Virus record (IMG/VR): IMGVR_UViG_3300027859_000009 | Location: 16,535-80,534 of that record | Source of the DNA: a virus | DNA: 64,000 nt | Direction: 5' to 3' (one strand) | Shown here: positions 5,896 to 64,000 of the stretch, piece by piece | Position numbering within the stretch: position 1 is the stretch's first letter | Layout: each line of letters opens with the position of its first letter | The notes under the pieces: model-generated | What the model was told of the DNA's origin: nothing | Database searches by the model: none | The model's input: only the letters and a program-made list of their open reading frames with translations | Program-made: the position numbers and the translations under genes

Positions 5896-6207
5896 ATGAA
5901 AATATTAGAAACATTCAACCAGTTTATTAATGAATCAGTAAATGTTGATGAATTAATAAAAGGTCTAGAAAAAGAATTCTCTTGGAATCAAGGATCTGCT
6001 AAAGAAATGACAACAAGTCCTGATTTTGCTTTTAGAAGAGGTGCTAAAGATGATAAAAACATTTTTATAACATATAGCGGTATGAAAGGCCAGTCAATTG
6101 CAAAAGATATTAGACAGTTTATCAAAGATTCCGGTGCAAAAGCATTACAAGTTGAAAAAGAAAACGGCGATAACGAGCACTATTACCATATAGAAATTAA
6201 AAGATAA
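5896..6207 (+). CDS. Small putative internal head protein with capsid-targeting-like N-terminus
   Basis: 103-residue protein of no recognised family. The first 13 residues end in ETFNQFINE followed by S, resembling the T4 capsid-targeting sequence (MKTYQEFIAE followed by A) that gp21 cleaves after the glutamate. The rest is a compact alpha-beta domain ending in a basic strand (HYYHIEIKR). Sits between gp46 and gp15. Packaging into the head is inferred from the N-terminus alone. Confidence 0.8.
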   Translation: MKILETFNQFINESVNVDELIKGLEKEFSWNQGSAKEMTTSPDFAFRRGAKDDKNIFITYSGMKGQSIAKDIRQFIKDSGAKALQVEKENGDNEHYYHIEIKR

Positions 6208-7013: not shown

Positions 7014-8168
7014 ATGGCAAAAGTTACACAAAACATTATCTCGCCTATTCATGTTAATGAAGACGAATCTACCTACATTTCTTTAGATGGTAAGGCGTTT
7101 TTAGTAAAAGAAAACGAGATTACAGAAGCAGAAATGACATCGGCACCAAACGAGTTTAAAAACCTAGTAGTGGCCCTTGATAAATTTAAAGTTACAAACG
7201 AAGGAGTTGCATGGTATCATGGAATTTCTAGATTTAGATATAATAAAGAAGATAATAAATTCTTTATTTCTAACTCAGAAGTTTTAAGTGAAAGTTTTAA
7301 AAACCACTTATTAGCAACAGGACTTGTAAGCTACTCTTTAAATCCAATGATTGACTTATTTGAAAATGCAGCTAAAAATCATGATAAATTTGTATCATTA
7401 GAATTTGCTAGTAAAATTTCAAATAAGAATATCCACTGCTATGTTATGGAGCAAAATGGAAATTTCTTTGTATATAAAATCAATGAATCAAATAAAATCT
7501 ATAAGTTTGAAAAAATGACTGCTAGTGAATGTTTTGATTATGTTAAAGAGCAAACTGGCCACGAATTAATAATGGCTTCAGAATTACTTGAGGGTGAAAG
7601 AGCTCAAGCAGCTGAAACTCACAAGAAAATAGAGATTTTAGAACAAATGATAGCATTCTTAAAAGACCAAAGAGGAGTTATTGCAGAAGCTGATAAATCT
7701 ATTGAAGAAATAAAAGAAGCAGATACTTTAATTAATTCAGAAATCAAAAGATTAGAAGAAGAAATTTTAAAAATAGAAGAAGCTAAAAACGAAGGAGAAG
7801 GAAATGACCCAGTAGAATTAGAAGATGAAACTAACGAAGTTGATTCTGACGAAGCTAGAGAAGAATTAGGAGAAGAAGCAGATAAAGAAGTACCTGAAGA
7901 CGAAGGAGAAGAAGGTGCAAAAGAAGTAGCTGAAAAAAAAACTAACGAGGCCGAGCTAGAAGAAGACCACGTTAGCAGAACTAATGGTTATGTTCCTGGA
8001 ACTCTTAAATTTGGAATCGAAAAATATGCTGAAGGAACTGAAGTAAAAGTAGATGCAGAAGGTTACACAACATCAGGTCAAGATGAATCAATTACTGTTT
8101 TTGTAGGAGATACTCCAGTAAAAGTTACTAAAAGAGAAGTTGCATTAGCAGATACTGAAACAATTTAA
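7014..8168 (+). CDS. Hypothetical late structural protein with coiled coil
   Basis: 384-residue protein behind a late promoter. The first ~180 residues look like a globular alpha-beta domain; residues ~200-255 form a heptad-rich coiled coil; residues ~260-320 are strongly acidic (runs of E and D); the last ~60 residues return to a beta-rich domain. The acidic linker resembles those in the core and protease-scaffold proteins of this phage. No family recognised. Virion or core protein is inferred from promoter and location. Confidence 0.82.
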   Translation: MAKVTQNIISPIHVNEDESTYISLDGKAFLVKENEITEAEMTSAPNEFKNLVVALDKFKVTNEGVAWYHGISRFRYNKEDNKFFISNSEVLSESFKNHLLATGLVSYSLNPMIDLFENAAKNHDKFVSLEFASKISNKNIHCYVMEQNGNFFVYKINESNKIYKFEKMTASECFDYVKEQTGHELIMASELLEGERAQAAETHKKIEILEQMIAFLKDQRGVIAEADKSIEEIKEADTLINSEIKRLEEEILKIEEAKNEGEGNDPVELEDETNEVDSDEAREELGEEADKEVPEDEGEEGAKEVAEKKTNEAELEEDHVSRTNGYVPGTLKFGIEKYAEGTEVKVDAEGYTTSGQDESITVFVGDTPVKVTKREVALADTETI

Positions 8169-8190
8169 AAAAATAGTCTATAATATACAG

Positions 8191-8559
8191 ATGAAAAAAG
8201 TAAACAATTTTGAAAGTTTTTTAAATGAAGGATTTAGCCAAGCTTACAACACCAGAACGCTAAAAGGTATTACATTTTCGTTACCACCATGGGAGCACGT
8301 AGATGATATGTTTAAAAAAGGAGATGAATTTGAAATAGCCTTTAATCAAAGAGCAGATACTGAAAAAATTTGGAATGACATTAGAAAGGCTCAAAAAGAA
8401 CATAAAGCTGTTAAGGCAATGAATATTGGTTGGATGTCAAATGAATTTCATGATGCTATCATTTCAGTTAAAGATGGAAATTACCCAGGTTTGACATATC
8501 TTTTTAAAGCATTAGATAAACATTATGGTAAATTCGGCGCAGCGATGGGTTGGAGATAA
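8191..8559 (+). CDS. Small putative internal head protein with capsid-targeting-like N-terminus
   Basis: 122-residue protein beginning MKKVNNFESFLNE then G, a close formal match to the T4 capsid-targeting/cleavage pattern (F-x-x-F-[IL]-x-E followed by a small residue). The mature part would be a ~109-residue alpha-beta domain ending in a short basic helix. No family recognised. It is followed by a strong terminator, closing the operon that starts at 6983. Confidence 0.82.
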   Translation: MKKVNNFESFLNEGFSQAYNTRTLKGITFSLPPWEHVDDMFKKGDEFEIAFNQRADTEKIWNDIRKAQKEHKAVKAMNIGWMSNEFHDAIISVKDGNYPGLTYLFKALDKHYGKFGAAMGWR

Positions 8560-8580
8560 ACACCAAATAAACTTACTACA

Positions 8581-8611
8581 AAGGGCTAAATGAAACATTT
8601 GGCCCTTTTTT
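8581..8611 (+). terminator. Intrinsic terminator
   Basis: 12-bp stem with one T-G pair (left arm 8581-8592, loop AAA, right arm 8596-8607) running into six Ts. Confidence 0.9.
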
Positions 8612-8638
8612 CATATAATAAAGTAAAATATACAAATA

Positions 8639-9019
8639 ATGCCTAGAAAAAAGAATTATTTAAACAACAAAGACCTTAGAGAGCAAATAATAATTTCTTT
8701 AGAACAAGATGAATTAACTAGAGAAGCTCAAAAAATGCTACAATTATTGGCTGAAAAAACAATTAATAAATTAAGATATGCTAATGAGGATGATAGAAAG
8801 GATTGCCTTCAATTCGCTCTTTTAGACCTTTTAAAATATTGGAGAGGTTACAAGCCTCAATACCCAAATGCATTTGCATATTATACTGAAATAGCAAAAA
8901 GAGGTTATGCAAAAGGATGGAATAAACTTCATCCCCACAAATATAAAGGAACGCTTTCAATGGATAGAATTAATTCTAATGATAGCGATTCAGGAAATTC
9001 AGGAATGTTTAATATTTAA
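8639..9019 (+). CDS. 55: Late-transcription sigma factor, gp55-like
   Basis: Minimal sigma-70-region-2 protein that directs host RNA polymerase to late promoters. YLNNKDLREQII at the N-terminus parallels T4 gp55 YVNNKELLQAII; the LQFALLDLLKYWRGY and PNAFAYYTEIAKRGYAKGW segments parallel the gp55 sigma-2 helices (conserved Y-x-NPHAYIT-like motif). Length 126 aa, shorter than T4 (185 aa): the C-terminal linker is reduced, and the clamp-binding tail, if present, would be the final GMFNI. It probably recognises the GATATATA motifs listed here. Confidence 0.82.
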   Translation: MPRKKNYLNNKDLREQIIISLEQDELTREAQKMLQLLAEKTINKLRYANEDDRKDCLQFALLDLLKYWRGYKPQYPNAFAYYTEIAKRGYAKGWNKLHPHKYKGTLSMDRINSNDSDSGNSGMFNI

Positions 9020-12176: not shown

Positions 12177-14060
12177 ATGGATAAACTTATCGACAAGACA
12201 AGCAATTTTGATTTGTTAATAGTAGAGAAGTCCTCATCAATTTTAACAAAATCTGGTGATGACAAAGACTATGTTTTAGAAGGTACTTTTGGAGAGATTG
12301 ATGTTAAGAATAAAAACAACAGAATTTATACAGAAGGAGAATATTTACCACAAATTGAATCATTGCAAAATAAAATTAACTCTTCTAAGTTATTAGGAGA
12401 ATTAGACCATCCTCAGCAATTTGATATATCTTTAAAAAACGTATCGCATATTATTGAAGAATTAAGATATGATAAAGAAAATAAAAAAGTAAAAGGTAAA
12501 ATCAGACTACTTGATACCGACGCAGGAAGACAAGCTAAGGCTTTAGTAGACGCTGGTGTACCTTTACACATTAGCTCTAGGGCAGCAGGTGAAGTATCAG
12601 AAGGAGGTAAAGTAAAAATAAAGCAATTATTTACTTATGACCTCGTTGCAGACCCTGGTTTTCAAAATGCAGAATTAACAAGAGTAAATGAATCTTATGG
12701 ATATTCAAATGACGAAAACTTATTTATTTACGAGTTATTTAAAAGAAAAGAAGAAAATAAAAACCAAAACATAATAGAAAATAAAAACAAAAAAGAAATG
12801 GAAGAATTTGTAAAAACAGATGATTTCAACAACTACACAAAGTATCTTGCTGAGCAGATCAAAGGTTTAAAATCGGTTATTTCTGAATTATCAGAAAAAA
12901 CAAATAATGGTTCGGATGAAACAAATGAAACTATTGAAAATGTAACAGCACATAACGACAGTATTGTTGAACAATTAAACAATTTAACAGAGTACGTTAA
13001 ATATGTTGCAGAAAAAACAGACCAAAACATCTCATACACTGAGCATGTTGCAGAAAAAACAGACCAAAGTATTCAATATGCTGAGTACGTTGCGGAAAAA
13101 GTAGACCAAGGAATCGGATACACTGAACACGTAGCAGAATCTTTAACATCTTTAAAAGAGTATGCAAACTACGTTGCAACATCTTACAACGAAGGTGCTG
13201 AAACAACAGAAAAATTAATAGAGTATGTTGAGTATTTAAGAGGTAATGTACAAAATATCAGTGAATATGCTAATTATATTGCTGAATCTATCAACGAAAA
13301 TCTAGTAATAGAAGGCGATGATGAAACAGCAAAAGAATTCGATGAATCAGATGAAGATAACGAATTAGAAAAAGTAGGAGATAACTCTGGAGAAGCTAAT
13401 AGAGCTGATGGTGGAGCTGGTCAAGAAAAAGAAGATTTAGATAACGATTTAAAAGACGTTACTACACCTGATGAAAAAGAAGAAGCTGATAAAGAAGTTC
13501 CTAAAAATTCAGGAGCAGACGGTGCTGATGACCCGCTAGAATCATATAAAGATGAAATTTCAGGTAAATTAAGTAGTTTACTAGAAAAAGCAGCTACAAA
13601 AGAAAATAAAGACCCTCATTTCTTTAAATTAGTTAGTTCTACAACAGCAGAAAAATATAATAACTTAGATGAAAATTCTAAAACTGCAGCTAGAAAATCA
13701 ATTACTGAATCAGGATTTTTAACAGAATCTCAAATTATCAGAATCATTGAAAACGTTAATGAAGTATCAGGAAACGTTTCAAATGAGCCTTTATTTATTA
13801 CAGCTATGCCGTCTGAATATAAAGATAAATGGAATTCACTTTCAGAATCTAAGAAAAGACAAATTGTTGCACAGTCTAAGACTCGTAAATTAGAAACAGA
13901 ATATCAAGTAAGAAACTTCTGGCAAACTAGAGACCTTAGAGAATTTGCTCCAGTAATGGAAAAAGTAGAAATGATTAACGAAAGTAAAAAAGAAGAACCA
14001 AAATTACCTTATAGTCTAGATGGTGTACAAGAGGCATTATCAAAAAGATTTAATAAGTAA
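12177..14060 (+). CDS. 21: Prohead protease fused to scaffold/core domain (gp21-gp22-like fusion)
   Basis: 627 residues. Residues ~30-175 are a T4 gp21-type serine protease: EGTFGEIDVKNKNNRIY, catalytic His in GELDHP (H78), catalytic Ser in HISSRAAG (S133 or S134) and YDLVADPGF. VNE at residues 170-172 followed by S173 is a plausible autocleavage site. Residues ~208-380 are coiled coil with 14-residue repeats (YxEYVAEKxDQxI); then an acidic linker and a helical C-terminal domain. T4 has protease (212 aa) and scaffold gp22 (269 aa) as separate genes, and no separate gp22 is visible here. An in-frame ATG at 12799 after an A-rich stretch could give the scaffold alone. Confidence 0.88.
   Translation: MDKLIDKTSNFDLLIVEKSSSILTKSGDDKDYVLEGTFGEIDVKNKNNRIYTEGEYLPQIESLQNKINSSKLLGELDHPQQFDISLKNVSHIIEELRYDKENKKVKGKIRLLDTDAGRQAKALVDAGVPLHISSRAAGEVSEGGKVKIKQLFTYDLVADPGFQNAELTRVNESYGYSNDENLFIYELFKRKEENKNQNIIENKNKKEMEEFVKTDDFNNYTKYLAEQIKGLKSVISELSEKTNNGSDETNETIENVTAHNDSIVEQLNNLTEYVKYVAEKTDQNISYTEHVAEKTDQSIQYAEYVAEKVDQGIGYTEHVAESLTSLKEYANYVATSYNEGAETTEKLIEYVEYLRGNVQNISEYANYIAESINENLVIEGDDETAKEFDESDEDNELEKVGDNSGEANRADGGAGQEKEDLDNDLKDVTTPDEKEEADKEVPKNSGADGADDPLESYKDEISGKLSSLLEKAATKENKDPHFFKLVSSTTAEKYNNLDENSKTAARKSITESGFLTESQIIRIIENVNEVSGNVSNEPLFITAMPSEYKDKWNSLSESKKRQIVAQSKTRKLETEYQVRNFWQTRDLREFAPVMEKVEMINESKKEEPKLPYSLDGVQEALSKRFNK
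12993..13160 (+). repeat. 42-bp tandem repeats encoding coiled-coil heptad pairs
   Basis: Four consecutive 42-nt units (12993, 13035, 13077, 13119), each coding Y-x-[EK]-[YH]-V-A-E-[KS] and mostly followed by x-D-Q-x-I. The fourth is diverged and degenerate copies continue to about 13300. Two heptads per unit predicts a regular coiled coil in the scaffold part. Confidence 0.9.
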
Positions 14061-14494: not shown

Positions 14495-15946
14495 ATGTCG
14501 AAAACTAAAACGCAAAAAAATAAATTTAACAAAATGGCAAATTTAATTAACGAAGCGGAAATTAGAGATACATGGTCACCGATTATTGAATCGGCAACTG
14601 GTATCAAAGACGCTGAAAAATTATCATGGATGTCTGAGTACTGTCACAATCACAAACTTTACGAAGACGCAAACATCATGTCCCTTAACCCAGGAATGAA
14701 CTTAACAGGTATGGGTGCAGTAGCATTCCCATCAAACTTTGACGGTGCAGCTGACGGTTCAGGAGACAAAGCTCCAACTTTACTTCCTTTAGCGATGCAA
14801 GTTGCAGCTCAAACAATCGGATTAGACTTAGTACCAGTTGTACCAATGGCTGGACCTATGGGTCTTTTATCTTACCTAGACTTCGTATACGAAGGAGGTA
14901 CTTTAGGTGCTGGAGCTTCCGGTGCTGATGGTACTGTAGCACCTACATACATCAAATCAGGAGCAACTGCTGCTTCTACTGGTGATACTATCGTAGGTAC
15001 ATCTAGAATTGACGGAAAATCAATCATCAAAATTGGAGCAACAACTGAAGCTGCAGCACCAGTAACTAACACTTACGCTGACGCTGAATTAGTTGCTGCA
15101 TTAGACGACCATATCCCTGGTTTCGTTGGAAATGATGATGGAACTCCATACACTAGAGAAGTTGGTGAATCAACTCCGGACAGAGTTATGGGTCTTTCAT
15201 TGTTCAGTAAATCAGTAGACGCTAGAACTTATCAAGTTGCTGCTGCAGTTACTAGAGAGCAAGTACAAGATTTAAAACAATTCGGTGTAGATGCAGTTGC
15301 TCAAGTAGAGGCTGTATTAACTAACGAGCTTACTCAAACAATCAATGATTTAATTATCAATAACATCGATTCACTTGCTACTGCTAACATGGCAGCTGCT
15401 GGTATCGCTGGAAACTTAAACGTAGCTTTAACTCCTGTTGCATCTGCAGCTGGTGGTGCTACTGAAGGTTCACAACACAGAAAAGTATTAACAGGTATTC
15501 TTGCTGCTGCTAACTTAATTGCTAACAGAGGTAGAAGAGGTGCTGGTAACTTTGCTGTAGTTGGACCACAGGTTGCTACATTAATTCAATCGGTTTCAGG
15601 ATTTGTTCCTAACCCATTCGCTAACACGGCAAACCAATCAGCAGGTGCTATTTATCCTGTAGGTTCTGTTGCTGGTGTACAAGTTTATACTAACCCAAAA
15701 TGGAATTGGTCTTACAATGAAGTATTAGTTGGTAGAAAAGGAGACGGAAACGGACCTGGATTAGTATTCATGCCTTACTTAATGGCAGAATCAGTACAAA
15801 CAATTGCTGAAGGAACTATGGCTCCTAAAGTAGCTGTTAAGTCTAGATTCAGAATCGTTGAAGCTGGTTTCCACCCAGAAACACAATATGCAAAATTTGC
15901 AATTACTGTTGCTGGTGGTGGTACTGATTTAGTAAACATCGCTTAA
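14495..15946 (+). CDS. 23: Major capsid protein, gp23-like
   Basis: HK97-fold shell protein. Near the N-terminus NLINE followed by AEIRD parallels the T4 gp23 cleavage site (FLTE followed by AEIGG), so prohead protease should cut after E20. Further T4-like stretches are ALDDHIPGF, AAVTREQVQDLKQFGVDA, LTNELTQTINDLII, NRGRRGAGNFAVVGPQVATL and VLVGRKGDGNGPGLVFMPY. 483 aa against 521 in T4. An in-frame ATG at 14534 (M14) has the AACAAAATG context typical of this phage and could be the real start, leaving a 7-residue propeptide. GC- and alanine-rich codons suggest high expression. Confidence 0.93.
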   Translation: MSKTKTQKNKFNKMANLINEAEIRDTWSPIIESATGIKDAEKLSWMSEYCHNHKLYEDANIMSLNPGMNLTGMGAVAFPSNFDGAADGSGDKAPTLLPLAMQVAAQTIGLDLVPVVPMAGPMGLLSYLDFVYEGGTLGAGASGADGTVAPTYIKSGATAASTGDTIVGTSRIDGKSIIKIGATTEAAAPVTNTYADAELVAALDDHIPGFVGNDDGTPYTREVGESTPDRVMGLSLFSKSVDARTYQVAAAVTREQVQDLKQFGVDAVAQVEAVLTNELTQTINDLIINNIDSLATANMAAAGIAGNLNVALTPVASAAGGATEGSQHRKVLTGILAAANLIANRGRRGAGNFAVVGPQVATLIQSVSGFVPNPFANTANQSAGAIYPVGSVAGVQVYTNPKWNWSYNEVLVGRKGDGNGPGLVFMPYLMAESVQTIAEGTMAPKVAVKSRFRIVEAGFHPETQYAKFAITVAGGGTDLVNIA

Positions 15947-16046: not shown

Positions 16047-17072
16047 ATGAAAAGATTTTACCTAAAAGAAAATTTAAAAACATACAGTGAGTTTACATCA
16101 CTTAATGAAGAAATCAATATTGAAAACCAACAAGAAACCTCTATATCAGGTCAAGATATTGAGGGCGATGTCATAACTGGAGATAATCTTTCCGGTGAAA
16201 TTGATACCATCTTAGATAAATTAAAAGAATTAGAAGATGGAATAGAAGAAGAACTTGCGGTTAAATATTTAGGTCTTATAGAAGATAGAGACCTTTTTGA
16301 AGAAGAAGATGGCGCAATGGCCAAAATAAAAGATTTTGTATTTGTAGCACCTAAAGTTACAAAAATGCAGAAAAAAGCTAATAAAATTAGACTTAATAAA
16401 GAGGTCTTAGATATGACTGTACAAAATCCTGAAATAGATGGTAAGAAAAAGAAATCGTTAGAACAAAAAAGAGACGGACTTAAAGACCAACTTAAAGATT
16501 TAGAAAATGCAGTTACCCAATATCAAAAAGATAACGGTGGAAAATATTCTGCTAGAAAACTTGCTAAAACAAAAATTGAAGGTCAATTAGCAGCTATTAA
16601 GAAAAAGACTGGTATGTCAGATGACCCAAAACAGCAAAAGTCATTAGCACAAGATGCTAAAGAACTTGCAGTAAGATACAAAGAAGAAGTTGCAGCAACA
16701 AAAGAAATTGCAGATGCTGATAAGCCTTCACCGGAAGAAGTAGCTAAAGCTAAAGCTGATGAAATCAAAACTCAAAGAAAAGAACTTATCGATAAGAAAG
16801 AGTCTACTGATGATAAAAAAGCACAAGCAACTTTACAAGTAGAAATAGAAACACTTAACGTAAAAATAGCTGCATTAGAGAAAGAAGGTGAAGCAGAAGC
16901 TAAACAAGATTTAAAAGATGCTAAGGCAAAATTAGCAGAAATTGAATCTGGAGGAGCAGAAGCAGAAGCAGGAGCTGAAGGAGAAGCAGGAGCTGAAGGA
17001 GAAGCAGGAGCTAAAGGATATAATGAGTCTGAATTTGATGGTTCTGGTAGAAGTTTACCTATCGCAGAATAG
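16047..17072 (+). CDS. Putative prohead core/internal protein with capsid-targeting-like N-terminus
   Basis: 341 residues, highly charged. Residues ~10-21 read LKTYSEFTSLNE before another E, containing the KTY-x-x-F core of the T4 capsid-targeting sequence. The middle is K/E-rich coiled coil; residues ~308-327 are a repeated A-E-G/A-G-A tract. Like T4 core proteins it is rich in Ala, Lys and Glu and lacks Cys. Own late promoter directly behind the capsid gene. Assigned as head core or internal protein by composition, signal and position. Confidence 0.83.
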   Translation: MKRFYLKENLKTYSEFTSLNEEINIENQQETSISGQDIEGDVITGDNLSGEIDTILDKLKELEDGIEEELAVKYLGLIEDRDLFEEEDGAMAKIKDFVFVAPKVTKMQKKANKIRLNKEVLDMTVQNPEIDGKKKKSLEQKRDGLKDQLKDLENAVTQYQKDNGGKYSARKLAKTKIEGQLAAIKKKTGMSDDPKQQKSLAQDAKELAVRYKEEVAATKEIADADKPSPEEVAKAKADEIKTQRKELIDKKESTDDKKAQATLQVEIETLNVKIAALEKEGEAEAKQDLKDAKAKLAEIESGGAEAEAGAEGEAGAEGEAGAKGYNESEFDGSGRSLPIAE

Positions 17073-55312: not shown

Positions 55313-56467
55313 ATGAGAATTAAGCCAATAAACGAATTCATGAACATTTTAGAAGCACAGCAAAATTTAAAGTTGAATGTACCAAAAGATGTTAAAGACC
55401 TTCATAAACTTTTTAAGAAGAATAAAAGGGAATTGTACATTGTTGGAGGAGCTGTTCGAGATGCCCTTCTTGGTCAAAAACCAAAAGACTTTGATTTAGC
55501 AACTGATGCTAAACCGGATGAGGTTGTAAAAATATTAAAATCCGGAGGAATTCCTACAATTGGAGAAGTTGGCCAGCAATTTGGTGTAGTTATTGCAAAA
55601 ACACCAAGTTTTGCAGAAGGAATGGAAATTGCTACATTCAGAGAAGACATTGGAAAGGGTAGAAGACCTGACGCTGTAGAATACTCAACAATAGATAAAG
55701 ATGTTCTTAGAAGAGACCTTACAATTAACGCACTTTTTTACGATATTGAAAGTCAAGAAGTAGTTGACCTAGTAGGAGGAGTTGCAGATATTCAAAGTAA
55801 CACTATTAGAACAGTTGGTAGGGCACAAGAAAGATTTGATGAAGACCCTCTTAGAAAATTAAGAGCATTAAGATTTGCAGGTAGAACAGGAAGTAAACTT
55901 GAAAAAAATACAGCCGAGGCTATTATCAGCGATAACAGTTTAGAAGATATTAGTAGTGAAAGAATTAGAGACGAGTTTAAGAAATCTGTAGAAAGCGCAA
56001 AGTCAGCTAGATTTTACTTAGATATGGTTTCAGAATTTAGTCTTTGGGGAGTAATGTTTCCAGGTTTAGAAATCAATAAAACTTTCTTAGATACTAACAA
56101 TTGGCTTTTACAAATAACACAGTTATTTGGAGATAATCAAGAAGAACTTCTTAAAAAAGAATTAAATAAGATGTCTTTTTCAAATCAAGAAATAGATACA
56201 ATTGTATTCTTTAAAAGATTTTTAGAACTTAAACCAGAAAATGCATTTCAATTAAATAAAGAATGGAAAATTGTAAAACTTGATAAAAAATTACTATTAG
56301 AATTTTCTAAGATAAATAAATTAGATATTAAATTAGTAAAAACATTCCTTAAATATAAACCTTCTACAAACGGAGGCCAAGTTATGAAAGAATTTGGTAT
56401 TAAAGGTTCTGCAATTGGAGATAAAATAAAAGAAATAGAAACCGAAAAATTTAAACAATTATTATGA
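55313..56467 (+). CDS. tRNA nucleotidyltransferase (CCA-adding/poly(A) polymerase family)
   Basis: 384 residues. Class II nucleotidyltransferase core: IVGGAVRDALLG with DFDLAT (metal-binding DxD), EIATFRED, DVLRRDLTINALFYD and DEDPLRKLRALRFAGR, followed by the helical body. Family members repair or add the 3' CCA of tRNA. An extra N-terminal ~35 residues begin MRIKPINEFMNILE then A, resembling the head-targeting signals of this phage. Fits the phage tRNA-Ala, which lacks encoded CCA. ATGA-coupled to the next gene. Confidence 0.9.
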   Translation: MRIKPINEFMNILEAQQNLKLNVPKDVKDLHKLFKKNKRELYIVGGAVRDALLGQKPKDFDLATDAKPDEVVKILKSGGIPTIGEVGQQFGVVIAKTPSFAEGMEIATFREDIGKGRRPDAVEYSTIDKDVLRRDLTINALFYDIESQEVVDLVGGVADIQSNTIRTVGRAQERFDEDPLRKLRALRFAGRTGSKLEKNTAEAIISDNSLEDISSERIRDEFKKSVESAKSARFYLDMVSEFSLWGVMFPGLEINKTFLDTNNWLLQITQLFGDNQEELLKKELNKMSFSNQEIDTIVFFKRFLELKPENAFQLNKEWKIVKLDKKLLLEFSKINKLDIKLVKTFLKYKPSTNGGQVMKEFGIKGSAIGDKIKEIETEKFKQLL

Positions 56468-60729: not shown

Positions 60730-62523
60730 ATGAGTAGAGTTTTAACATCAGAAGCATTCATGCTTGTAAACGGTTTAGATATTCAACATTCAAGTGAATG
60801 GGAAGATTATTTAGAAATGAACGCGCAGATAAATGGTTTAACAAGAGAAGAATATGCAGCATACTATTTAAACACGCAATGGCAAATGCAGTGTATGGAA
60901 AGTATTGTTACTTTATTTGAAGCTAAAAAAGTTACAAGAAAGCAATTAGATAAGGCTCTTGGTGAAATTACAAGAATTACTCAAGATTTAAAGTCAACTG
61001 TCCTTTTATGGAAAGATGCTAAAGAAAATGGAAATGGTGCTAAAGAAAAAGAACATTTAGATACTTTAAAGAAATTAAATGCTGAGAAAAAAGAAGCAGA
61101 GAAAGAAGTAGAAGGGTTTATTAAAGGACTTGATAAGAATGTAGAATTAAGCATTACAGAAGCCATCGAAGTTACCAAAGAAATGTGGGACAAGGAATGG
61201 CCACTTAAAAAAGTATTTGGAAAAGACTACGAGGCTAATTTCGCAAAAAGAGTAGAAGCAGCAATGTCAAAAGCCAAAAACGAAGAACAGGCTGAAGAAT
61301 GGGCTTATAAAAACTTTAAACAATTACCAAACCCTGCAAAAGGGATGACTATAGAAGAATCAGTTATGAATGAATATGGCCCAATGCGAGGTTCTGGTAA
61401 TAGAGATTATAGTACTAGTGAACTTGTTGATAGAGCTGGCGAACTAGATGATATTTTTCAAGATTCTAGAAATCGTAGAGCTATTAGAGATTGGGAAGAA
61501 TATACTGAAGACCTATTTGGTGAATATGCAGGAGACCAAGACGGTGGAACACAAGATGTATATTGGGCAGATATTCCAGAACATGAACTTCAAACAGCAA
61601 TCGATGTTGGCGAGGATATTATGAATAAGTATAAGATTAAAGAATCAGTTATGAATGAAGCAAAAGGCGCACCATGGCCAGAACAATTAGAAAAAGGGTT
61701 AACTCATTGGGGTTACAAAAAAGGAACCCATACTAGAGAACTTAAAACACTTCCTTGTAGAATTGGAAGAAATGCACAAGAATTTGGTGGACCTAACCAT
61801 GCCCAATCAGTTGTAGACCTTAATATGAAAGACCCAATGGTCAAGAAATTCTTTAAGCCTAAATTTAAAGTTAGAGCAGATGGAAATTACGTAAATGATT
61901 ATGTTGAACTAATTCCTAAAAAGGGTTATTTATATAGTCTACATGTAGGTACTGGACAATTTGAATATTTTTGTTTAGCAATTAAACCAGGAGAGGTTTA
62001 CATATTTAGAAAATATGACGAAGCCTATGGACAATATGAATATTTCAAATTCGAAGAGAATATGTCAACAAGATCTGGAGTATTTGATTTTAAAAGACAT
62101 AGAGAAGAAGAACAATGGAAATGGAATAAATTAAAACCAGACGGTGCAAGTCATTTCGTATCAGTTGGATGGGGAATCATGGATATTGGTTTAGAATATA
62201 CTCAATTAGAATTACCATTTGAACATCTAAAAACTTACGAAAGTTTTGTTACTGAAAAAAAAAACTTATCTAGTTCAATTAAAGCAGCATTAAAAAATGG
62301 TTTAGTTAATGTTGGAGGAGACAAGGTTAAAGTTTCTGTTACTAATAAAAACCAATATAAAATCCAACCATACGACTCTCTTGTTGGCGGTGATTGGGCA
62401 GAGGCAGATCTACGAGATAATTTCAAAGACTTGGTTGATGACCTTAATTTTTCTTTAAAAGGCAAATATTCATTTTCACCAATCGATGTTACTAATAAAG
62501 AATGGATAATAGAATTACTCTAA
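60730..62523 (+). CDS. Putative internal-protein polyprotein with three protease-like sites
   Basis: 597 residues of no recognised family. Three segments resemble capsid-targeting/cleavage signals: MTIEESVMNE before Y (site after E215), KIKESVMNE before A (after E310) and LKTYESFVTE before K (after E509), the last closely matching T4 KTYQEFIAE. Cutting there would release pieces of ~215, 95, 199 and 88 residues. Piece 1 is helical with a coiled coil near 100-145; piece 3 is a beta-rich globular domain; piece 4 a small alpha-beta domain. Own late promoter. Confidence 0.85.
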   Translation: MSRVLTSEAFMLVNGLDIQHSSEWEDYLEMNAQINGLTREEYAAYYLNTQWQMQCMESIVTLFEAKKVTRKQLDKALGEITRITQDLKSTVLLWKDAKENGNGAKEKEHLDTLKKLNAEKKEAEKEVEGFIKGLDKNVELSITEAIEVTKEMWDKEWPLKKVFGKDYEANFAKRVEAAMSKAKNEEQAEEWAYKNFKQLPNPAKGMTIEESVMNEYGPMRGSGNRDYSTSELVDRAGELDDIFQDSRNRRAIRDWEEYTEDLFGEYAGDQDGGTQDVYWADIPEHELQTAIDVGEDIMNKYKIKESVMNEAKGAPWPEQLEKGLTHWGYKKGTHTRELKTLPCRIGRNAQEFGGPNHAQSVVDLNMKDPMVKKFFKPKFKVRADGNYVNDYVELIPKKGYLYSLHVGTGQFEYFCLAIKPGEVYIFRKYDEAYGQYEYFKFEENMSTRSGVFDFKRHREEEQWKWNKLKPDGASHFVSVGWGIMDIGLEYTQLELPFEHLKTYESFVTEKKNLSSSIKAALKNGLVNVGGDKVKVSVTNKNQYKIQPYDSLVGGDWAEADLRDNFKDLVDDLNFSLKGKYSFSPIDVTNKEWIIELL

Positions 62524-63474: not shown

Positions 63475-64000
63475 GTGAGTAAACTTTTAGACCAATACAC
63501 AGCATTAGATTCTCAAGCTTTTGCAGATAATATCCACAGAGAAGCAAATGGATATTGGAAACCAATATATCCAGGAGAATTAAATAGACCTCTTAAGCAT
63601 GTAGAGGCAGATTACAATTATAAAGTTCTTACAGGAACTTTAGCAAATTATAGAATTTATCCATCTGCAATTTTACCAGGAACAACAGGTGCTGCAGTAG
63701 AAGATTTTACTGGAGATGATAATAAAGTACTGCAATTAAAGTATGATGCAACTGAAGGTTGGTATTGGACTCTTCTTTTGGGTGGTTCGGGAACTACTGG
63801 TCCTGCTGGTCCTACCGGTGCTGCTGGTCCTACCGGTGCTGCTGGTCCTACCGGTGCTGCTGGTCCTACCGGTACAAATGGTGCAACAGGTCCTGCTGGT
63901 CCTACTGGTGTCAGCGGAACTCCTTATGCGAATAGTAAAACAGAAACTTACACTTCAGCAAACATACTTGCAGGCGACAAAATTAATCTTTTAAACAGTT
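63475..64000 (+). CDS. Collagen-like tail fibre or virion protein (GTG start, 3' end outside window)
   Basis: Frame open from GTG at 63475 to the window end (175 codons seen). Residues 1-105 form a globular head ([48 protein letters not shown]). Residues ~106-145 are Gly-X-Y triplets ([13 protein letters not shown]...), a collagen-like triple helix, followed by a new globular region that continues outside. Typical of trimeric phage fibres. The GTG is chosen because no upstream ATG fits and it is 3 nt after the preceding stop. Confidence 0.82.
63808..63873 (+). repeat. 18-bp tandem repeats coding GPTGAA
   Basis: Units GGTCCTACCGGTGCTGCT at 63808, 63826 and 63844 with a partial fourth at 63862; nearly identical at DNA level, so recently expanded and likely length-variable. 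Much more GC-rich than its surroundings. Confidence 0.92.

Follow-up and report, generated by a model that had tools for sequence, protein, structure and literature searches.

The 64,000-nucleotide stretch analysed here (the window, positions 16,535 to 80,534 of the 80,534-bp IMG/VR virus record IMGVR_UViG_3300027859_000009) carries an intact open reading frame (ORF), named PolyA, which starts with ATG, spans positions 60730..62523 on the plus strand and encodes 597 amino acids (aa). PolyA is probably a precursor that gives rise to several small phage-head proteins, either cargo or core components. In this chain a conserved N-terminal domain would be followed by four modules of 71–199 aa, each behind a predicted cleavage site for the prohead protease, [VILM]-[NT]-E/ (a slash marks the expected cut). 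A precursor of head-targeted proteins for the prohead protease had been proposed in a preliminary description of the sequence, and this proposal is supported by the module sets of homologues, breakpoints located at the signals, purifying selection, stand-alone counterparts of modules from sister genes and a protease gene. Coordinates below are those of the window, and all its listed features lie on the plus strand.

Predicted Cleavage Sites in PolyA

The N-terminal domain of PolyA (residues 1–144, 60730..61161) is predicted to be helical, has no Pfam match and shows no recognised signal or family. It ends at SITE/AIEV (site 4, residues 141–144, 61150..61161), which is followed by a 71-aa module (residues 145–215, 61162..61374) ending in TIEESVMNE/YG (site 1, IEESVMNE at residues 208–215, 61351..61374). 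A 95-aa module (residues 216–310, 61375..61659) extends to KIKESVMNE/AK (site 2, IKESVMNE at residues 303–310, 61636..61659), and a 199-aa module (residues 311–509, 61660..62256) to KTYESFVTE/KK (site 3, residues 501–509, 62230..62256). The last module comprises 88 aa (residues 510–597, 62257..62520). The three segments ending at residues 215, 310 and 509 are thus present exactly as first described. The several-product precursor proposed from them is supported, while the count of four products does not, since SITE/A at residue 144 had been overlooked: there are at least four predicted internal sites and hence at least five predicted products. A weaker candidate (ESIVTLFE/AKK, residues 57–64, 60898..60921) may be a fifth site, as its L-x-E is kept in all relatives, where the counterparts read ESLQMLAE/KK, ESLQRLTE/KK and ESLKQLSE/KK.

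The N-terminal signal of T4 internal proteins is 10–20 residues long, with Y4 and F7 acting in targeting and I8 and E10 in processing; in IPIII, targeting involves residues 4 and 7 and processing residues 8 and 10, and Asp in place of the P1 Glu blocks processing (PMC9026906). Read from the T4 genome (AF158101), IpII and IpIII start with MKTYQEFIAE/A, which bears out the earlier statement that KTYESFVTE matches T4 at K, T, Y, F and E, and gp23 has SFLTE/AEIGG, close to SFVTE/KK of PolyA. Sites 1, 2 and 4 carry the T4 processing residues only (hydrophobic P3, Glu P1), and site 3 also has the targeting residues (Y at P7, F at P4). The sites had been called T4-like targeting and cleavage signals, which holds for processing at all of them and for targeting at KTYESFVTE alone.

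The pattern ES.{0,2}[ILVMF][NTD]E occurs three times in PolyA beyond residue 100, compared with a mean of 0.028 in shuffled sequences (0 of 2000 shuffles reach three), and four to six times in each relative. Its background in the other proteins of three genomes, two other polyprotein genes included, is 0.28 per 1000 aa. The search pattern fixes P3, P2 and P1 by construction, and the resulting site logo is descriptive and not a test.

No function could be assigned to PolyA with Pfam or PHROGs (the sole weak match being phrog_4283, E 0.05), and no embedded peptidase was detected by Pfam in window PolyA or in the relatives scanned.

Module Exchange Among Related Phages

IMG/VR scans identified the PolyA gene on seven further contigs. 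The genomes compared are metagenomic contigs; for several versions there is more than one independent contig (L003/L004; L067-L070). The encoded proteins are of 668 aa in L003 and L004 (near-identical), 680 aa in G001 (= L007), 662 aa in G002 (= L006), 902 aa in L038 and at least 775 aa in G005 (= L005/L010), where the contig ends inside the gene. In L002 (8001-10007) PolyA is broken into frames of 294 and 361 aa, the second starting MTIEESVFNE, by an assembly error or a real frameshift. Contig L038 also holds a gene pair (163 and 86 aa) twice in tandem (7317-8081 and 8184-8948) with identical N-termini as printed. PolyA had no tblastn match among 50,697 phage records, nor did Poly2, one of the sister polyproteins described below, and the N-terminal domain of PolyA yielded nothing when 84,980 bacterial and archaeal genomes were scanned.

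A common N-terminal part of about 145 aa (59–95% identity) is shared by all relatives and precedes a varying series of modules, each behind a hydrophobic-[N/T/D]-E signal, so that a constant signal is combined with cargo that varies between related phages. Identity between the window and its nearest relative, L003, over aligned residues is 96, 94, 87 and 84% for residues 1–144, 145–215, 311–509 and 510–597, with ratios of nonsynonymous to synonymous substitution (dN/dS) of 0.10, 0.13, 0.29 and 0.31, respectively, indicating that every comparable module is under purifying selection; the 145–215 module aligns with L003 residues 247–317 over 69 residues. In contrast to these neighbours (87–94%), the module at 216–310, enclosed by sites 1 and 2, has been replaced in L003 by an unrelated module of 64 aa, with just 24% identity over 50 aa, and a 98-aa module of L003 is missing from window PolyA at residue 144. 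As the preliminary description had asked of a homologue alignment, the Glu positions are conserved: P1 Glu is the same at all four sites, and P3 varies among hydrophobic residues (M/F, M/V, I/V). SITE/A aligns with ESKVNE/GTEV of L003, IEESVMNE/Y with IEESVFNE/A and IKESVMNE/A with FDESIVNE/K.

Among close pairs, 51 of 68 edges of lost, swapped or inserted blocks have a predicted site no more than 10 residues away (random expectation, 21%), and the median distance from breakpoint to site is 4 aa compared with 31 at random; these edges are not independent, because several genomes occur in more than one pair. Predicted protease sites thus stand at module borders, as in viral polyproteins. Inserted modules come with their own site, and PolyA of G005 contains in tandem two modules that are alternatives in G002 and G001, plus one more.

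Further Putative Polyprotein Genes

Two more polyprotein genes, Poly2 and Poly3, are present in G001 and G002, which gives at least three such genes per genome in these two relatives. Both start with a capsid-targeting signal in the relatives. Poly2, a cassette polyprotein family (G001:59139-61592, also represented by L020/L070; G002:103635-105755; L071-L076), has the canonical start MATFEEFLNE/ and a length of 678–1170 aa in six distinct versions, with conserved ends and a variable middle. Poly3 (G001:141370-143430, L051; G002:23976-25868; L012:15441-18869) has inserted modules between the two halves of a DUF5824 protein; short module-free forms are L065, L066 and L083-L086, of which L065 is the insert-free form of 180 aa. 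In the 50,697 phage records, Poly3 was matched by tblastn through its DUF5824 module only. The families have modules in common: residues 381–467 of G005 PolyA are 71% identical to residues 326–413 of the Poly3-type protein of L062.

Modules of the sister polyproteins also exist as separate proteins. The 1142-aa Poly3-type protein of L012 contains an internal module preceded by VKESFVNE/ELPTQEIDPN, and this module is a separate gene in L081, L082 and L088. The stand-alone gene of L082 (300 aa) starts with MKSLNEFLNE/ALKTKEIDPS, and its cut point aligns with that of L012. We guess by eye, from ILDGHHRWAA, that this module is ParB-like; a Pfam scan gave no match. Likewise, the C-terminal module of Poly2 is about 35% identical (E ~1e-9) to a separate 165-aa gene starting MNHTKLFEQFVNE/N in the window's own record (G000:7127-7624). 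Empty and filled sites were found in two smaller genes. The S1 gene reads MVHTTFSGFINE/AKIKDARK in G001 (170 aa) and MVHTTFSGFLNE/module..ESVDE/AKIKDARK in G002 (252 aa), and the S2 gene, MNNIKNFNDFINE, encodes 140 aa in G001 and 297 aa in L071.

Other phages were also considered. LR756500 has stand-alone N-terminal signals, but a clear polyprotein was not seen in the 442 kb read; in Tenacibaculum phage PTm1 signals are few and, again, a clear polyprotein was not seen. Proteins of HTVC008M and Melnitz share DUF5824 and lack a clear site-module pattern. Two other phage contigs encode chains of about 1540–1550 aa (L090:3020-7636 and L092:1784-6448) that combine DUF5824-like parts with repeated segments of the EEVELDE type and may follow the same strategy with a different signal.

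Predicted Protease and Other Candidate Substrates

The window encodes a 627-aa prohead protease of the S77, T4 gp21 type with a C-terminal extension (12177..14060; PF03420, 1.4e-10; phrog_207, 2.3e-39), in addition to the hydrophobic-x-Glu sites at PolyA residues 144, 215, 310 and 509 on which it could act. The protease itself contains ESINE/N (residues 370–374, 13284..13298; AESINE/N is kept in G001 and G002) between its protease/coiled-coil part and the extension. Given this position, its coiled-coil repeats and the absence of a separate scaffold (gp22) gene between the protease and capsid genes, the gene is probably a protease-scaffold fusion; its counterpart in PTm1 carries the annotation "prohead core scaffolding protein and protease". 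The gp23-type major capsid protein (14495..15946; PF07068, 9.7e-41) has LINE/AEI near its N-terminus (codons 14543-14554), conserved in G001 and LR756500. At both ESINE/N and LINE/AEI, which are independent positions, one could expect this protease to cut as well. A T4-type portal gene is present in the record, and two stand-alone genes carry N-terminal signals, MKILETFNQFINE/S (5896..6207) and MKKVNNFESFLNE/G (8191..8559). Among annotated phages, the uncultured phage LR756500 (51%), the Prevotella Lak phages and Tenacibaculum PTm1 have the closest capsid proteins, which makes a Bacteroidetes host likely.

PolyA is flanked by a transglycosylase-like gene on one side and a collagen-repeat gene on the other. 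The latter (63475-64000) is fibre-like, with the repeat GPTGAA, and extends past the window end. A tRNA nucleotidyltransferase (55313-56467) starts with MRIKPINEFMNILEAQ and its G001 counterpart with MRRLKLYEEFSLIQEAQ, a capsid-targeting-like start on an enzyme.

Weighing of Alternatives

Several observations weigh against a cleaved, head-loaded precursor. PolyA begins with MSRVLTSEAFMLVNG, in which a T4-type N-terminal capsid-targeting sequence was not found, unlike the starts of Poly2 and Poly3; the full signal is internal only (501–509). No stand-alone counterpart of window PolyA's own four modules was found, no module has an assigned function, and 17 of the 68 breakpoints are not close to any site. 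AlphaFold models of window PolyA and one long relative reached predicted local distance difference test (pLDDT) values of 40.6 and 41.4, too low to place the sites outside folds, and the fall of pLDDT near some sites is only suggestive. The serine of ES[h]NE is encoded by TCN in 28 of 28 sites, although 29% of all serine codons in these genes are AGY, so that part of the motif conservation would reflect DNA copied along with modules and not independent selection. Copied site DNA fits recombination via short repeated site-coding stretches.

The copying of site DNA with modules also agrees with an in-frame fusion of adjacent internal-protein genes, whose internal signals would be mere relics; like the polyvalent proteins, the resulting multidomain chain would then stay intact in the head or the cell. 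A Met shortly upstream of 51 of 101 internal sites (34% expected) and the likeness of some sites to old gene starts (ENTMKNLQTLESFINE/A) are in line with such an origin. Relics should decay, yet P1 Glu is kept at four sites between the window and L003 despite changes at P3 and a replaced module, and inserted modules carry a site along; we therefore regard an uncleaved fusion as unlikely. Another reading takes the repeated signal to act mainly at the DNA level, marking where mobile modules recombine or insert, and not as a protease site; it would account for the breakpoints on the signal, the TCN bias and the presence of the same modules in differing contexts. This appears quite improbable, for signal length and DNA vary (ESVNE, ESVMNE, ESFINE, ESAVTE, ESIVTE) while hydrophobic-x-E persists, and these residues recur both as the N-terminal signal of stand-alone genes and at a conserved position within the protease.

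Separate products could also arise from internal translation starts instead of cleavage, given the in-frame ATG ahead of some sites (MNKYKIKESVMNE, MTIEESVMNE); half of the sites are without a nearby Met, and window site 3 has none in the upstream residues listed, which leaves this explanation very improbable. Scarcely credible at all is a multidomain tail or fibre protein with ESxNE linkers. It is suggested by the two genes flanking PolyA, but the signals match head-protease sites, two further polyprotein genes of the same plan are located elsewhere in the genome, and the T4 ip genes likewise lie outside the head cluster, adjoining lysozyme.

Comparison With Known Systems

As a cleaved precursor, PolyA would closely recall T4 IpI, IpII, IpIII and Alt (PMC9026906, PMC3012670), with which it shares the form of the signal (KTYQEFIAE/A and KTYESFVTE/K), the protease family, small products and high cargo turnover. 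T4 has one N-terminal signal per gene, whereas here several internal sites separate several cargo modules that are exchanged at the sites. In T4, the internal proteins that share this constant signal are a varied set serving defence and take-over (PMC3012670, PMC9026906). Polyvalent proteins of phages and plasmids (Iyer et al., 2017, PMC5512222) are similarly many-domain chains with rearranged modules, for which release of parts and injection with DNA have been proposed, and the module network likewise gives several distinct domains per polypeptide. They often embed a zincin-like or other peptidase together with known catalytic domains (a zincin-like MPTase in about 36% of them; PMC5512222); in PolyA no peptidase domain was found, and its cut signals are those of a separate prohead protease.

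Head proteins of SPN3US and phiKZ with long propeptides also have several prohead-protease sites (A-x-E) per protein (PMC5694885, PMC10052503). There the cuts strip an N-terminal propeptide piecewise and leave one mature protein, whereas here the stretches between the predicted cuts are domains conserved by purifying selection. Polyproteins of eukaryotic viruses share the plan of one ORF, several products and viral-protease sites between modules; PolyA differs from them in belonging to a prokaryotic double-stranded DNA phage, with a protease encoded elsewhere that would act in the prohead, and its modules are probably cargo rather than replication and capsid core. The preliminary description knew of no phage polyprotein of this kind, and our searches, which covered open-licence papers, likewise found no publication on one.

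Proposed Mechanism and Implications

We propose that the whole chain enters the prohead core as a single unit, where the T4-type S77 protease would cut after each Glu and free modules of T4 internal-protein size. The freed modules would remain with the DNA and probably be ejected into the host. Recombination between short repeated site-coding stretches may add, remove or swap modules while sparing the others, and since every module carries its own site, modules could be exchanged without disturbing their neighbours. From these comparisons we infer cleavage of the chain, its location in the head, ejection of the modules and a role for them in counter-defence or take-over; counter-defence is a natural guess, because module turnover is of the same kind as that of T4 internal proteins behind their constant signal.

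With moderate confidence, we further suggest that PolyA, Poly2 and Poly3 are cassette polyproteins and represent an undescribed route of head loading: each would string together small effectors in open-ended number, the maturation protease would cut the chain inside the prohead, and phages would reshuffle the pieces among themselves at the protease sites. In this reading, the cleavage signal would also serve as the exchange joint. If this is true, one gene and one head-entry event would allow a phage to evolve and dose many injected proteins, and a simple sequence rule (a module between hydrophobic-N/T-E sites) could be used to search metagenomes for unknown phage proteins that are injected, counter-defence factors probably among them. 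Polyproteins would then be added to the head biology of tailed phages.
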